Assembly (NCBI RefSeq): GCF_000966265.1
Contig: NZ_LANF01000006.1
Span: forward strand, 124,001-188,000
Reading direction: 5' to 3'
DNA length: 64,000 bases
Source of the DNA: Palaeococcus ferrophilus DSM 13482
GTDB taxonomy: Archaea > Methanobacteriota_B > Thermococci > Thermococcales > Thermococcaceae
The notes under the pieces were generated by a model. The model did no database searches. It was not told where the DNA came from and worked only from the letters and a program-made list of their open reading frames with translations. The position numbers and the translations under genes are program-made. Positions 12,106 through 53,432 of this stretch are shown in pieces. Every line of letters starts with the position of its first letter. Positions within the stretch are counted from its first letter, which is position 1.

Positions 12106-12204
12106 TCACTCCCTGAGGAACTCGAGCTCCTCAACGAGAGGCTTCTCCCTCTTCTTCAAGTCCCTCTCCGCCATGTAACCGTAAAGCATGACCAGCAACT
12201 CCAT
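12106..12204 (-). CDS. 32-residue small ORF with a consensus Shine-Dalgarno
   Basis: Starts at ATG 12204 with AAGGAGGTGA ideally spaced upstream, the strongest ribosome-binding site in the region, and ends at TGA 12106-12108. The peptide begins MELLVMLYGYMAERDLKKR and continues acidic, suggesting a short hydrophobic helix followed by a charged tail. It lies 100 bases before the HTH-PRTase operon on the same strand, so it could be a leader peptide or a free small protein. No family known to me. Confidence 0.5.
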   Translation of the reverse strand: MELLVMLYGYMAERDLKKREKPLVEELEFLRE

Positions 12205-12433
12205 TATCTCACCTCCTTTTTTGTCTCTCCGTAATATACAGGTATTTTTTAGGTTAAAAGCTTTTTCAGCACCTTTACAGGGCCAGATGACCATGAAAAG
12301 GCATTCTAACCATAAAAAATGCCCGCTGATAACTTTTTAGCCTTAATGAACATGTTTGTTCAAGAAAAAAGAGTTTAAAGGAACTTTTTTCTCAAAATGC
12401 GCACATTTTAGGGAAATTCCACATTGCTAAGGG
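12205..12433. other. AT-rich intergenic region without a gene
   Basis: Between the divergent small ORF and SRP54. It contains candidate TATA elements on both strands, for example TTTAACCTAAAAAA reading leftwards at 12243-12258, and several T and A tracts. No convincing ORF, tRNA or C/D-box sRNA found; no SRP RNA either. Confidence 0.4.
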
Positions 12434-12440
12434 TTATAAA
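12434..12440 (+). promoter_or_regulatory. TATA box of srp54
   Basis: TTATAAA lies 33 bases before the chosen ATG, predicting a leader of about 10 bases that just includes GGTGGTGAAA. Confidence 0.5.
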
Positions 12441-12472
12441 CTGCCGGGCCCCTTTTTAATCAGGTGGTGAAA

Positions 12473-13828
12473 ATGGCACTTGAAAACCTCGGAAAGGCCC
12501 TTAACAGCGCGCTCAAAAAGCTCGCGAGGTCAAACGTTGTGGATGAGGCGCTCATCAAGGAGGTCATACGAGACATCCAGAGGGCCCTGATAATGAGCGA
12601 CGTTAACGTCCGCCTTGTTCTCGACCTGACGAAGAAGATAGAGAAGAGGGCCCTTGAGGAGAAGCTCCCTCCAGGAATATCGAGGAAAGAGCACATAATC
12701 CACATCGTCTATGAAGAGCTCACGAACTTCCTCGGGAAGGAAGCGAAGCAGATTGAGATAAAAGAGAAGCCCACAATCCTGCTCACCGTTGGAATTCAGG
12801 GTTCGGGTAAAACCACCACGATAGCGAAGCTCGCGCGGTACTTCCAGAAGAGGGGCTACCGCGTGGGCCTGGTGTGTACCGACACCTGGCGGCCGGGTGC
12901 CTACTTCCAGCTCAAACAGCTCGTGGAGCCCTTCGGCATCGAGGTCTTCGGTGACCCGGAGGAGAAGGACGCTGTGAAGCTCGCGAGGGAGGGTGTCGCC
13001 CACTTTAGGGAGAAGGGCGTTGATGTCATCATAGTGGACACCGCTGGAAGGCACAAGGATGAAGCCGGGCTCATAGCGGAGATGAAGGAGATAAGCTCCG
13101 TTGTGAATCCCCACGAGGTGATACTCGTCATAGACGGCACCATCGGTCAGCAGGCCTACAGCCAGGCCCAGGCATTCAAGGAGGCAACTCCCATAGGCTC
13201 GATAATCGTCACGAAGCTTGATGGAAGCGCCAAGGGTGGTGGAGCCCTCTCCGCAGTGGTTGCCACGGGAGCACCGATAAAGTTCATAGGTGTGGGCGAG
13301 CGCGTGGAGGATTTAGAGCCCTTTGATCCAAAGCGCTTCGTTTCAAGGCTCCTGGGTCTCGGTGATATACAGGGGCTCCTGGAAAAGTTCGAGGAGCTCA
13401 GCAAGGAGCAGGAGATAAAAGAGGAGGACATGGAGAAGTTCCTCAAAGGGAAGTTCAACCTCCGCGACATGTACGCACAGCTCGAGGCCATGAGCAAGAT
13501 GGGGCCGCTCAAGCAGATTATGCAGATGATTCCAGGACTCGGCTATTCCGTCCCCGATGAGTTCCTTCAGGCAGGGGAGCAAAGGCTTAAGAAGTTTAAG
13601 GTCATTATGGATTCCATGACGGAGGAGGAGCTGGAGAGACCAGAGATTATAAACTACTCCCGCATAAAGCGCATCGCCCGCGGTTCCGGGACCTCTGTGA
13701 GCGATGTGAGGGACCTGCTGAACCAGTACAATCAGATGAAGAAGTTCTTCAAGAGCATGAACAAGAGAAAGCTCTCCCGCCTAGCCAAGAAGTTTGGTGG
13801 AATGAACTTCGGGGGGTTTGGGATATGA
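12473..13828 (+). CDS. srp54: Signal recognition particle protein SRP54
   Basis: GTPase that binds SRP RNA and signal peptides and docks ribosomes on FtsY. N domain at 1-85, G domain with GIQGSGKTTTIAKLA (about 106), DTWRPGA, VDTAGRHKDE, TKLDGSAKGGG; M domain from about 295 with methionine-rich helices (MYAQLEAMSKMGPLKQIMQM) and an RNA-binding SRIKRIARGSG segment. 451 residues is normal. Start at ATG 12473 preceded by GGTGGTGA; GTG codons at 12464 and 12467 belong to that site. The next gene overlaps its stop by 4 bases. Confidence 0.97.
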   Translation: MALENLGKALNSALKKLARSNVVDEALIKEVIRDIQRALIMSDVNVRLVLDLTKKIEKRALEEKLPPGISRKEHIIHIVYEELTNFLGKEAKQIEIKEKPTILLTVGIQGSGKTTTIAKLARYFQKRGYRVGLVCTDTWRPGAYFQLKQLVEPFGIEVFGDPEEKDAVKLAREGVAHFREKGVDVIIVDTAGRHKDEAGLIAEMKEISSVVNPHEVILVIDGTIGQQAYSQAQAFKEATPIGSIIVTKLDGSAKGGGALSAVVATGAPIKFIGVGERVEDLEPFDPKRFVSRLLGLGDIQGLLEKFEELSKEQEIKEEDMEKFLKGKFNLRDMYAQLEAMSKMGPLKQIMQMIPGLGYSVPDEFLQAGEQRLKKFKVIMDSMTEEELERPEIINYSRIKRIARGSGTSVSDVRDLLNQYNQMKKFFKSMNKRKLSRLAKKFGGMNFGGFGI

Positions 13829-29400: not shown

Positions 29401-30321
29401 TCATATCCCCGTGTAAGGTTCTGACATGCCCTCCTTCATGTAGGCGACGCTCATGTGTTTGGTGTTCTTCGCGAAGCCTACGTTGCCGTTGCGGTCAATC
29501 ATTATAATCCCCGCCACGTTCTCACCGAACCTGCTCGTGACGAGGCTTATCGCGGCTTCGCTCGCCCTCTGGGCATCCAGTCCAAAGCGCACAAAATCGG
29601 AAGCGGTTTTCGCCAGAACCAGCCTTATCATGACCTCACCTATTCCCGTGGCGGAGGCTCCCGCAAACTCGTTCGCGTAGGTGCCCGCGCCGATTAAGGG
29701 AGTGTCCCCTATTCTCCCGAACATCTTGAGGAAAACCCCACCTGTGGAGGTTCCGGCAACGACCTCTTCACCGTCAAAGGCCACCGCACCGACTGTACTC
29801 CTCAGCACCTCCGGGTACTCCTTTATAAGTTCGTTCAGCTTTTTCCAGTGGCCGCTCTCACCCTTCTCGAGAAGCTTTTTTCTGAGCTCCTCCCACTGCT
29901 TAAGTCTCTCGTCGGTTATGGGGTTGTACTCCTCAAAGCCAAGAAGCCTCGCGAACTTCACGGCTCCCTCCCCACCGAGGAGCACGTGGTCGGTCTTCTC
30001 CATCACCTTCCTCGCCACGCTTATGGGGTTCTTTACACCCCATATCCCGGCAACGGCACCCGCCTCAAGAGTTTTCCCGCGCATTATGGCAGCATCCATC
30101 TCCACCTTTCCATCGAGCGTTAGGACGCTCCCCGTTCCCGCGTTGAATATGGGGTTGTCTTCCAGAGATTTGACCGCTTCCTCAACCGCGTCAAGGGCAG
30201 AGCCCCCCTTAAGTTCACGCCATCCGGCCAAAACAGCCTCTCTAACCCCTTCAAGGACCTTTGGAATCCTATCCTCATTTCTTATCGTTCCGGCACCGCC
30301 GTGGACTATTATCGCGACCAT
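29401..30321 (-). CDS. Plant-type asparaginase / isoaspartyl peptidase (Ntn hydrolase)
   Basis: 306 residues. HGGAGTI near the start and the autocatalytic Thr in RSTVGAVAFDG, preceded by the linker that is cut to give alpha and beta subunits; GDTPLIGAGTYAN and SATGIGEVMIRL are further family blocks. It hydrolyses isoaspartyl peptides and/or asparagine, useful for protein-damage disposal at high temperature. ATG 30321 has GGTGG upstream. It is immediately upstream of the broken MFS gene on the same strand and probably co-transcribed. Confidence 0.93.
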   Translation of the reverse strand: MVAIIVHGGAGTIRNEDRIPKVLEGVREAVLAGWRELKGGSALDAVEEAVKSLEDNPIFNAGTGSVLTLDGKVEMDAAIMRGKTLEAGAVAGIWGVKNPISVARKVMEKTDHVLLGGEGAVKFARLLGFEEYNPITDERLKQWEELRKKLLEKGESGHWKKLNELIKEYPEVLRSTVGAVAFDGEEVVAGTSTGGVFLKMFGRIGDTPLIGAGTYANEFAGASATGIGEVMIRLVLAKTASDFVRFGLDAQRASEAAISLVTSRFGENVAGIIMIDRNGNVGFAKNTKHMSVAYMKEGMSEPYTGI

Positions 30322-51099: not shown

Positions 51100-51177
51100 G
51101 GGCCCGTGGTCTAGACTGGTTATGACGTCGCCCTCACACGGCGAAGGTCCGGGGTTCGAATCCCCGCGGGCCCACCA
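51100..51177 (+). tRNA. tRNA-Val (anticodon CAC)
   Basis: 78 bases including CCA. Acceptor GGGCCCG/CGGGCCC with discriminator A. Anticodon stem TCGCC/GGCGA encloses CTCACAC, giving CAC (reads GUG). T arm CGGGG-TTCGAAT-CCCCG. No intron. Its 3' side borders a long non-coding repeat array, so it may be the anchor of an old integrated element; I see no second copy of the tRNA 3' end in the window. Confidence 0.97.
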
Positions 51178-51181
51178 GTAC

Positions 51182-51205
51182 AAACTTCGCCTGCGCGAAG
51201 TTTGA
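51182..51205 (+). repeat. Small hairpin directly after tRNA-Val
   Basis: CAAACTTCGC and GCGAAGTTTG are perfect inverted copies around a 4-base loop. A degenerate relative, CAAACTTTGC...AAAGTTTG with a second stem, occurs at about 52120-52160 before module 4. Both precede a GTTTGATCAAGGTTCGT arm. Confidence 0.8.
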
Positions 51206-51214
51206 TCAAGGTTC

Positions 51215-51451
51215 GTAGCTCTTTGCCAGAATGCTAATTCTACGCGATTTTTCCTGTCGAAAGACTATTTTTGAAAGCGAGAACTCTTAAATTTGTCCCA
51301 TTAACGCGTGTTTAGCTCTAAATCGGCGCTCACAGGGCGCCAAAAGGAAGAAAACACTTTTTCAAAAAGCTCCCCCCGCCGGTTCTCATTCAAAAATAAG
51401 CACTTACACAGCAAAAAATCCCGAATAAAAACCCTTCCTGAGAAGAGCTAC
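51215..51451. repeat. Nested-hairpin module 1
   Basis: Four nested stems about one axis: outer GTAGCTCTT 51215-51223 / AAGAGCTAC 51443-51451 (perfect); 51243-51257 / 51408-51423; 51264-51284 / 51382-51400; inner GTGTTT 51308-51313 / AAACAC 51352-51357; centre GGCGC 51325-51329 / GCGCC 51337-51341. No coding frame accounts for it. Homologous in plan to modules 2-4. Confidence 0.8.
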
Positions 51452-51461
51452 AAACTTTTTA

Positions 51462-51498
51462 GTGAAGCTTTTGGAAAAAGCTTCAGCGCTGGCGGAAG
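51462..51498. repeat. Linker repeat copy 1
   Basis: GAAGCTTTTGGAAAAAGCTTC hairpin (positions 51463-51484) followed by AGCGCTGGCGGAAG. Near-identical to copy 3 at 51950-51986. The short ORFs in this area are readings of this repeat, not genes. Confidence 0.85.
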
Positions 51499-51531
51499 AG
51501 GAGTATGAGATTCTAACAAGCAAGTTTTTAA

Positions 51532-51649
51532 GCGGGTTTACTCCCTAACCTGCTGATTTGGCAGGATTTCCTCATAGTATAGTGCCCAAGGGCACTAAAA
51601 AGAAAGTTCGAAATCACAATTTGCGAATGAGTTTAGAGAGTAAACCCGC
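51532..51649. repeat. Nested-hairpin module 2
   Basis: Outer stem 51532-51548 / 51633-51649 (16 of 17 pairs), inner GATTTC 51565-51570 / GAAATC 51610-51615, central palindrome AGTGCCCAAGGGCACT 51581-51596. The bases flanking the centre (CATAGTAT before, AAAAAGAAAG after) match those of module 3. Confidence 0.82.
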
Positions 51650-51720
51650 ATGGAGTTGCCTCCAGAGCGAGCATACGCCCCTCCAACAAGCTAGTTAAAA
51701 AAAGAAGGGAGAGTTTTTTG

Positions 51721-51765
51721 GTCAAGCTTTTTCCAAAAGCTTGCAGAGCAAAGTTTCATCAAAGG
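51721..51765. repeat. Linker repeat copy 2 (variant)
   Basis: AAGCTTTTTCCAAAAGCTT hairpin at 51724-51742, then a divergent tail GCAGAGCAAAGTTTCATCAA leading into the 5' arm of module 3. The other copies continue with CAGCGCTGGCGGAAG instead. Confidence 0.75.
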
Positions 51766-51768
51766 TGG

Positions 51769-51939
51769 AATGTCCTTGTTAAAGTGCTGGATTCCAGAGG
51801 ATTCTCTCTTCAACTAGCAGTTTTTAAAGGGGTTTCTTCACAGTACAACGCCCGGAGGGCGTTAAAAAAGAAGAAACCGCATTATTCTGCCCACTTGCCC
51901 GGAGAATCCAGCACTATCAGACCAATCCTGGAGGACATT
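51769..51939. repeat. Nested-hairpin module 3
   Basis: Outer AATGTCC 51769-51775 / GGACATT 51933-51939; AGTGCTGGATTC 51783-51794 / GAATCCAGCACT 51904-51915 (perfect 12 pairs); inner GGTTTCTTC 51831-51839 / GAAGAAACC 51870-51878 (perfect 9 pairs); centre AACGCCCGGAGGGCGTT 51847-51863. The clearest of the four modules. Confidence 0.85.
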
Positions 51940-51949
51940 GAAACTTTTG

Positions 51950-51986
51950 GTGAAGCTTTTTTCAAAAGCTTCAGCGCTGGCGGAAG
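51950..51986. repeat. Linker repeat copy 3
   Basis: GTGAAGCTTTTTTCAAAAGC at the start, then TTCAGCGCTGGCGGAAG; differs from copy 1 by only a few bases in the hairpin loop. Confidence 0.85.
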
Positions 51987-52156
51987 AAGAGTGCTATTTT
52001 TAAAACAGGGAAGTTTTTGAGCGAGTTTTGCATTACCTCGTAGTTTTAACCTGTTTCAGTGGCACTTGCCCGTTGCACGATTAATTCCCTGCCCGTTTAA
52101 GAGGCAGAACCCCTTTGATCAAACTTTGCTGTGGAAAGTTTGTTTGCTGAGCAAAA
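51987..52156. other. Spacer between modules 3 and 4
   Basis: No gene. It holds small inverted segments, for example AAAACAGG near 52003 with CCTGTTT near 52050, and the CAAACTTT/AAAGTTTG and TTTGCTGAGCAAA hairpins at about 52120-52155. Confidence 0.5.
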
Positions 52157-52419
52157 GTTTGATCAAGGTTCGTGGTTCCTTCTAAACTGTACTTTTACTA
52201 GGGAATTCCTTCTAAAAACCTCTCCTAGGGTGGAATTTCTCAAATATTGCCCAATTGAACAGGAGTTTTTCTCACTTTGACGCCCTTCGGGCGTCTTTTA
52301 CAATGGAAACTCACGGGTAAAAAGCATACTGGGCTTAGAATTCACAACCACAGGACAGGTTTCTAAGAAAAATCCACTCAGAACAGCTCGCGAACAAGAA
52401 CCACCAACTTTGATGAAAC
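52157..52419. repeat. Nested-hairpin module 4
   Basis: Outer arms 52157-52178 / 52398-52419 (about 18 of 22 positions pair); 52210-52221 / 52357-52369 (imperfect); inner GAGTTT 52263-52268 / AAACTC 52307-52312; centre GACGCCCTTCGGGCGTC 52279-52295. The 5' arm begins GTTTGATCAAGGTTCGT like that of module 1. Confidence 0.8.
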
Positions 52420-52440
52420 CTTACAAGCAAAGTTTCTTCG

Positions 52441-52470
52441 GTCAAACTTTTTCTAAAAGCTTCAGCGCCG
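52441..52470. repeat. Linker repeat copy 4 (truncated)
   Basis: GTCAAACTTTTTCTAAAAGC followed by TTCAGCGCCG, a shortened relative of copies 1 and 3. It marks the downstream edge of the array; unrelated sequence follows. Confidence 0.7.
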
Positions 52471-52532
52471 CTTTCACTGGCATTCAAGCGTCCCTGACGG
52501 ATGACGGGAGATTATCCTCTCCAGAACATTTC

Positions 52533-52573
52533 ACCGGTGGGGTTAAAAAGGGCGGTGCCCTTCCCCCTCCGGT
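52533..52573 (+). promoter_or_regulatory. Leader hairpin overlapping the DUF89 ribosome-binding site
   Basis: ACCGGTGGGG 52533-52542 can pair with CCCCCTCCGGT 52563-52573, with an internal GGGC/GCCC hairpin at 52550-52560. The 3' arm enters the GGTGG site at 52571-52575 that serves ATG 52581, so the fold could limit translation. Confidence 0.4.
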
Positions 52574-52580
52574 GGTGTGG

Positions 52581-53432
52581 ATGAAGATACACTACGAGTG
52601 CTTTGCCTGCGCCGCCAACCAGTGCCAGAGGATAGTGGAGATGGGTACAGATAATCTCGAACTGCGGAAGAAGGGCGTTATCGAGGCGGCGAAGCTGATG
52701 GCAAGCATAAGTGGATACTCTGTTCCAGCGATTTTCGGGAGCGAGGTCTTCCTCGGCGTTTACAAGGTCATAGGCAATGACGACCCGTTCAAAGAGTACA
52801 AGGAACTCTCCAACAAGCTTGCGGAGAAGGTCGTAAGCGATCTCGAAAAGGAGGAAATGGACATCAGAACGGCCCTAAAGCTCGCCATCATTGGGAACGT
52901 GATTGACTTCGCAGTAGGCTACTCTCCAGAGAAGATCGAGGAAGACGTAAAGACCATGCTCAAAGAGGAGCTCTACATCGACCACTCAGACGAGCTTTTT
53001 GAGGCTCTCAAAAGCGCGAAGACCCTCCTCTACCTCACTGACAACTGCGGGGAGATTTACTTCGACAGGCTCTTTTTGAAAAAACTAAAAGAGACCTTTC
53101 CGCACCTTGAAATCTACATAGCGGGCAAGGAGGAGCCGATGATAAACGACGCCACCGTTGAAGACCTGAAGAAAGCGGGCTTCGAGGAGCTTGGGAGGGT
53201 AATCTCAACTGGCACGAGGATCGTTGGGGTTCCGCTCGACAGGGTCTCCGAGGAGTTTAAGAGCATTTTCGAAAGTGCCGACGTGATAATAGCGAAGGGC
53301 CAGGGCAACTTTGAGACGCTGAGCGAAATAAACGATACCAGGGTCTTCTACCTCCTCAAGGCGAAGTGCAGGCCGATAGCGAGGGAGCTTGGGGTGCCGC
53401 AGGGGAGCATGGTGTGTATGCGGGCCAGGTAG
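52581..53432 (+). CDS. DUF89/ARMT1-like metal-dependent phosphatase
   Basis: 283 residues. N-terminal helical part with CFACAANQCQRIVEMG; catalytic alpha/beta domain with LTDNCGEIYFDRLFLKKL (the Asp-Asn metal motif), GKEEPMINDATVEDL and VIIAKGQGNFETLSE. DUF89 proteins dephosphorylate damaged or surplus sugar- or nucleotide-phosphates. ATG 52581 is set by GGTGG; an open frame back to 52410 is read from the repeat array and is not coding. Confidence 0.88.
   Translation: MKIHYECFACAANQCQRIVEMGTDNLELRKKGVIEAAKLMASISGYSVPAIFGSEVFLGVYKVIGNDDPFKEYKELSNKLAEKVVSDLEKEEMDIRTALKLAIIGNVIDFAVGYSPEKIEEDVKTMLKEELYIDHSDELFEALKSAKTLLYLTDNCGEIYFDRLFLKKLKETFPHLEIYIAGKEEPMINDATVEDLKKAGFEELGRVISTGTRIVGVPLDRVSEEFKSIFESADVIIAKGQGNFETLSEINDTRVFYLLKAKCRPIARELGVPQGSMVCMRAR

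Follow-up and report, generated by a model that had tools for sequence, protein, structure and literature searches.

REP/BIME elements and other bacterial intergenic palindromes are short, non-coding and modular sequences that are dispersed 3' of genes and bound by architectural proteins. The repeat family presented here also consists of dispersed, modular, intergenic and non-coding palindromic units 3' of genes, and in three complete genomes 54 clusters of these multicopy palindromes were found. It differs, however, by units of about 250 bp with four nested, mirrored blocks at 31-bp spacing that are polar and alternate; moreover it is archaeal, fixed to tRNA 3' ends and no associated transposase was seen. 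With MITEs and fold-back elements it has the multicopy and non-coding nature as well as the terminal inverted arms in common, but it is arranged in tandem with strict polarity, and neither target duplications nor an autonomous partner were recognised. Like a CRISPR the array alternates a hairpin repeat with a longer unit. The original prediction had already denied such a relationship, and this is borne out: the units are dyads homologous to one another across loci and genomes instead of unique spacers, and the repeats vary.

In nucleosomal DNA of T. kodakarensis AA/AT/TA/TT dinucleotides recur every 10 bp offset from GC dinucleotides, and the centre is GC-rich (PMC3691661). Archaeal nucleosomes avoid A/T-only pentamers and are themselves depleted in intergenic DNA (PMC3691661), and about 30 bp of DNA are taken up by each dimer of archaeal histones (PMC7990501). 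The array resembles the HTkA/HTkB positioning sequences (PMC3691661) in its 10-bp alternation of A/T and G/C, its GC-rich dyad and its unit of about 30 bp, but it is A/T-rich and intergenic and has evolved as a repeat family. In T. nautili the reaction of a tyrosine recombinase (Int-pTN3) is described as low in sequence specificity (PMC5495485). A laboratory inversion in this organism involved a 176-bp identical crossover segment, in which one base was corrected as a sequencing error; in the portion of the paper considered here the segment past the tRNA is called merely a strictly conserved sequence following the tRNA (PMC5495485). The family bears on two questions, namely which DNA features place archaeal chromatin and why Thermococcales chromosomes rearrange so fast at their tRNA genes, the latter being notable as the genus has few insertion sequences. 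Although genetics, transcriptomes and nucleosome maps are available for model organisms of Thermococcus, the family is apparently undescribed: a literature search limited to open-licence papers returned no description of it.

The analysed window comprises 64 kb (64,000 nucleotides) of Palaeococcus ferrophilus DSM 13482, contig NZ_LANF01000006.1. It carries a gene-free, non-coding repeat array of about 1.3 kb that starts at 51179, two nucleotides 3' of tRNA-Val(cac), extends to about 52470 (Table 1) and has a GC content of 0.43 (vs. 0.55). What had been observed here by the original prediction is real and larger than first described. As proposed for the stretch between tRNA-Val and the DUF89 gene, nothing coding-like was detected from 51177 to 52581. 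From the four postulated modules the nested inverted repeats and four GC-rich palindromic centres were recovered, but a fifth, truncated module at 51974-52111 had been overlooked, and the array reads M1, M2, M3, truncated M2-like and M5. The short hairpin linker, said to occur four times, was located at 51457, 51716, 51945 and 52436 (A-type), but there are two linker types joining the five modules, and both are the abutting terminal arms of adjoining modules. The related GTTT(G/C)ATCAA outer arms lie at 51198, 51751 and 52155. Terminal inverted repeats are present, with the module ends GCAAAGTTTCATCAAAG / CTTTGATGAAACTTTGC and variants. That the locus is more than a simple terminator was also seen correctly: it is an organised non-coding fold-back repeat array.

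Table 1. Features of the tRNA-Val(cac) array and its surroundings (positions refer to the window).
Feature	Position	Strand	Evidence
tRNA-Val(cac), array starts behind its 3' end	51100..51177	+	ARAGORN; Rfam RF00005
Leading linker hairpin AAACTTCGC-CTGC-GCGAAGTTT, most widely conserved piece	51179..51204	+	many tRNA genes are followed by pieces of 93-100% identity
Module 1, class beta, type M1, dyad centre ~51333; blocks GTAGCTC/GATTTT/GAGAAC/GTTTA mirrored	51198..51456	+	
A-type linker hairpin GAAGCTTTTGGAAAAAGCTTC	51457..51485	+	
Module 2, class alpha, type M2, starts GCGCTGGCGGAAGA, centre ~51588	51486..51715	+	
A-type linker hairpin	51716..51745	+	
Module 3, class beta, type M3, centre ~51855; GAATGTC/GATTCTC/GGGTTT/AACGCCC mirrored in family consensus	51746..51944	+	
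A-type linker hairpin	51945..51973	+	
Module 4, class alpha start GCGCTGGCGGAAGAAGAG, truncated, without central hairpin	51974..52111	+	
B-type linker hairpin TTGATCAAACTTTGC...GCAAAAGTTTGATCAA	52112..52170	+	
Module 5, class beta, type M5, centre ~52287 (GACGCCC-TTC-GGGCGTC)	52155..52405	+	
Closing B-type + A-type linker, distal array end	52404..52464	+	
DUF89 gene	52581..53432	+	orthologues behind arrays of different tRNA genes elsewhere

The array belongs to a genuine, dispersed and non-coding repeat family of Thermococcaceae with a strict address and architecture. Its modules recur in the same genome (up to 99% identity), where among further copies one, located behind another tRNA-Val, matches module 2 and its surroundings with 99% identity over 275 bp, and they recur in other genera as well. 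A failure of the modules to recur anywhere, by which the original prediction would have been refuted, is thus not what was observed. Matches were obtained in 44 of the 101 archaeal genomes searched, 43 of which are Thermococcaceae (genera g1 and g3-g6); the searched genomes of genus g2 (Pyrococcus-like) gave zero matches. The match in the distant archaeon G099 was set aside because only an AAGCTT hairpin is shared. Contigs C12, C13, C19 and C20 of this small-genome archaeon contain many AAGCTTTT...AAAAGCTT hairpins that resemble the A-type linker and occur without modules.

In the three complete genomes 40 of the 54 clusters start closely 3' of a tRNA gene, in most cases at a distance of 4-24 nt, whereas random placement would yield about 1.4. 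An array is carried by 16/43, 13/44 and 10/44 tRNA genes, and as this is the minority and some arrays are decayed, any benefit should be mild or absent. Outside the 40, two clusters are preceded by tRNA 3' halves that integrated elements left behind, one by an intron-containing tRNA-Met and another one by the H/ACA RNA Pab160, an address that recurs in a second species. Some arrays in the genome of the window (G000) and in G001 begin directly at a stop codon, and the start is exact at CCA as well as at stop-codon ends. With a few clusters matching no visible rule of placement, these tRNA fragments, Pab160 and stop codons indicate that the rule is the 3' end of a gene, usually of a tRNA gene.

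Two loci deserve mention besides. L174 (G001) and L103 (G000:C10) share a protein gene whose product ends in YPKMW-stop and behind which an array begins immediately; this represents a conserved non-tRNA address in two species. Within L124 (G051:1141000-1145000) a stretch of 70% GC at about 2609-2750 on the minus strand, with promoter-like upstream sequence, precedes a tRNA-less array and may be an unannotated small RNA gene.

Each module of about 250 bp is a dyad of short complementary blocks with unpaired spacers. In four module types the mirrored blocks are centred about 20.5, 51, 82 and 113 nt from the dyad, with background-level spacers between them, and the mean block spacing is 30.95 nt in both arms. 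Exact complementary 7-mers at fixed distances occur in 40-95% of the modules vs. 0-3% after shifting one arm. The block sequences vary by module type yet remain mirrored, and nearly every block begins with G as a loose common theme. Of 120 modules 115 are oriented like the upstream gene and 5 against it. Among 46 pairs of adjoining modules 40 combine class M2 with class M1/M3/M5, and in the array of the window this alternation is seen throughout. Between nearest relatives 90% of the M2 block cells are unchanged vs. 56% of the spacer cells. As subfamily structure confounds the covariation of M2 modules (off-diagonal pairs score too), changes were counted in nearest-neighbour pairs with spacer controls, the mis-centred M1 being left out. 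For M2, M3 and M5 pooled, changes on both sides stay complementary in 16 of 23 cases in blocks vs. 35 of 323 in spacers. One-sided block changes break the pair in 98 cases and keep it in 40, with no excess of G-U.

A period of 10.25-10.5 bp (G/C vs. A/T, AA/TT steps) is found in all four module types and in seven of eight arms, with a helical phase loosely shared among the types, and as the phasing controls are related copies the p-values overstate independence. In single sequences the power of this rhythm is 2.7 vs. 1.1 in flanks, and the 240-bp segment with the strongest 10.3-bp rhythm of the entire window is contained in the array. Elsewhere a strong 10.3-bp G/C rhythm is seen at window positions 12141-12480 and 30001-30260. 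Both hallmarks of nucleosome-positioning DNA, a 10-bp dinucleotide rhythm of A/T vs. G/C and a GC-rich centre, are present in the array. A/T-only pentamers are not depleted there (0.065 vs. 0.021 in the rest of the window; 0.061 in the shuffled array).

Since rhythm and 31-bp spacing of the modules match the published archaeal nucleosome code and dimer size, positioning of chromatin is favoured. It counts against histones that the array is A/T-rich and intergenic with undepleted pentamers, that a 10.3-bp rhythm fits other DNA-bending proteins too and that the exact mirroring of blocks is unexplained by histone positioning alone. Our best reading, held tentatively and with a probability somewhat short of even, is that of DNA-level chromatin-positioning arrays at gene 3' ends which double as recombination substrates. 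The DNA itself would be the active form, and each module of about 250 bp would strongly position archaeal histones or a comparable architectural protein. It combines a GC-rich dyad with mirrored blocks at 31-bp intervals (three helical turns, one footprint of a histone dimer) and the 10.3-bp rhythm, and a run of modules may hold an ordered archaeasome behind a highly transcribed RNA gene, as a boundary of chromatin or transcription. The many near-identical chromosomal copies could in addition recombine, which would partly homogenise them inside each genome, change the number of modules, exchange the genes that follow and permit inversions. We infer that histones bind, that the arrays serve as boundaries and by which route they reached new gene ends. 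That these are natural nucleosome-positioning arrays with blocks at dimer spacing, forming archaeasome boundaries behind tRNA and driving the scrambling of Thermococcales chromosomes by their copies, is possible but doubtful.

For one pair of array copies recombination is documented by published work (PMC5495485). The primer site published for T. nautili is present in genome G048, whose tRNA-Gly(ccc) and tRNA-Gly(tcc) with flanks share 86 + 1 + 89 = 176 positions; by this primer site and this segment the genome is matched to, and probably represents, that T. nautili strain. The 176 positions in G048 are made up of 41 nt of tRNA-Gly and 135 nt of array. It is in these 135 nt that the Int-pTN3 sites (PMC5495485) and the family coincide, and the published crossover segment is mostly this repeat. 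The original prediction had also named ssDNA hairpins recognised by a recombinase as a candidate; in that work a tyrosine recombinase did act on one copy, but in the reaction of low described specificity. Variable neighbours are visible at the orthologous dphB-tRNA-Val site, where the array has one to five modules or is decayed and the next gene is DUF89, tRNA-Gly or tRNA-Arg. Conversely, the tRNA genes whose arrays precede DUF89 differ by genome and comprise tRNA-Val with the anticodons cac, tac and gac, tRNA-Gly(ccc) and tRNA-Leu(gag); in one case DUF89 is found behind a tRNA-Arg fragment. Similarity among M2 modules is 0.68 within a genome vs. 0.53 between genomes. A side observation concerns L153 and L155: in G036 and G021 the tRNA gene next to dphB is tRNA-Val(tac) and not tRNA-Val(cac), which looks like the product of an exchange between two tRNA-Val loci within the tRNA itself.

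Among the competing explanations, a selfish non-autonomous palindromic element (MITE- or REP-like), inserted in an oriented manner at gene 3' ends by an enzyme encoded elsewhere and subsequently expanded in tandem, is rather unlikely. It would account for the terminal inverted arms that bound each module, for the dispersed copies with one to five modules or decay at one and the same site, and for the exact start at CCA or stop-codon ends. Fold-back elements were one of the initial suggestions and as such are possible, but the strict polarity (115:5), the alternation of classes and the fixed placement at gene 3' ends are unlike free insertion, no target duplication was noticed at the junctions, and a MITE would need neither internal blocks nor a helical rhythm. 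A distant blastn search of plasmid and phage collections found no related sequence and at a relaxed threshold chance matches alone, whereas a 16-mer scan of viral contigs produced 45 matches, zero of them with any module by profile search; thus no autonomous relative or copy was seen among plasmids, phages and viral contigs. The type-specific conserved blocks, exactly mirrored and three helical turns apart, could also be sites for another sequence-specific architectural, segregation or recombination protein, with dimers on one face of the helix and histones irrelevant. This resembles the iteron logic of protein-binding arrays and would profit from the common initial G, but the blocks differ by level and module type and would demand relaxed specificity, no candidate protein is at hand and the location at tRNA genes stays unexplained; we consider it unlikely.

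A structured RNA array had been proposed as well. If a transcribed structured RNA or terminator module were at work, read-through from the tRNA would give rise to hairpin RNAs or to bidirectional termination, and place and polarity fixed relative to transcription, the leading hairpin, which adjoins the end of the mature RNA, and T-runs on both strands would be in line with it. RNA hairpins are, however, not supported and the probability of this reading is low: no Rfam family (Rfam 15) matches the array and the tRNA alone scores above cut-off, the MFE z-scores of the window modules are just -0.9 to -2.9 vs. shuffles, one-sided changes follow no G-U preference, and helices of 6-8 bp separated by loops of about 23 nt are implausible at 85 C. 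The main text of the T. kodakarensis primary-transcriptome paper makes no mention of repeats. Very improbable, finally, are decayed plasmids or proviruses that had integrated into tRNA genes. Arrays share the address of integrase att sites and are met beside integrase genes and tRNA 3' fragments, but where an element did integrate the array beyond it is older resident DNA (L107, L108), and plasmid and phage collections are devoid of such sequence. At none of 70 tRNA loci is the tRNA 3' end repeated at the distal border, the two matches being convergent tRNA genes. Such an origin is largely refuted.

Two side observations concern integrase-like genes. In G029, presumably T. kodakarensis KOD1, tRNA-Val(cac) is followed by an integrase-like gene and the array is located about 23 kb off behind a tRNA-Val 3' half (L107, G029:62156-62849; L154, G029:86216-87128), as if a provirus had separated tRNA-Val(cac) from its array. 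In the genome of the window itself (L060, G000:C18:33500-38500) a tRNA-Arg 3' fragment is followed by an array, and beside it lies an open reading frame resembling an archaeal tyrosine integrase.
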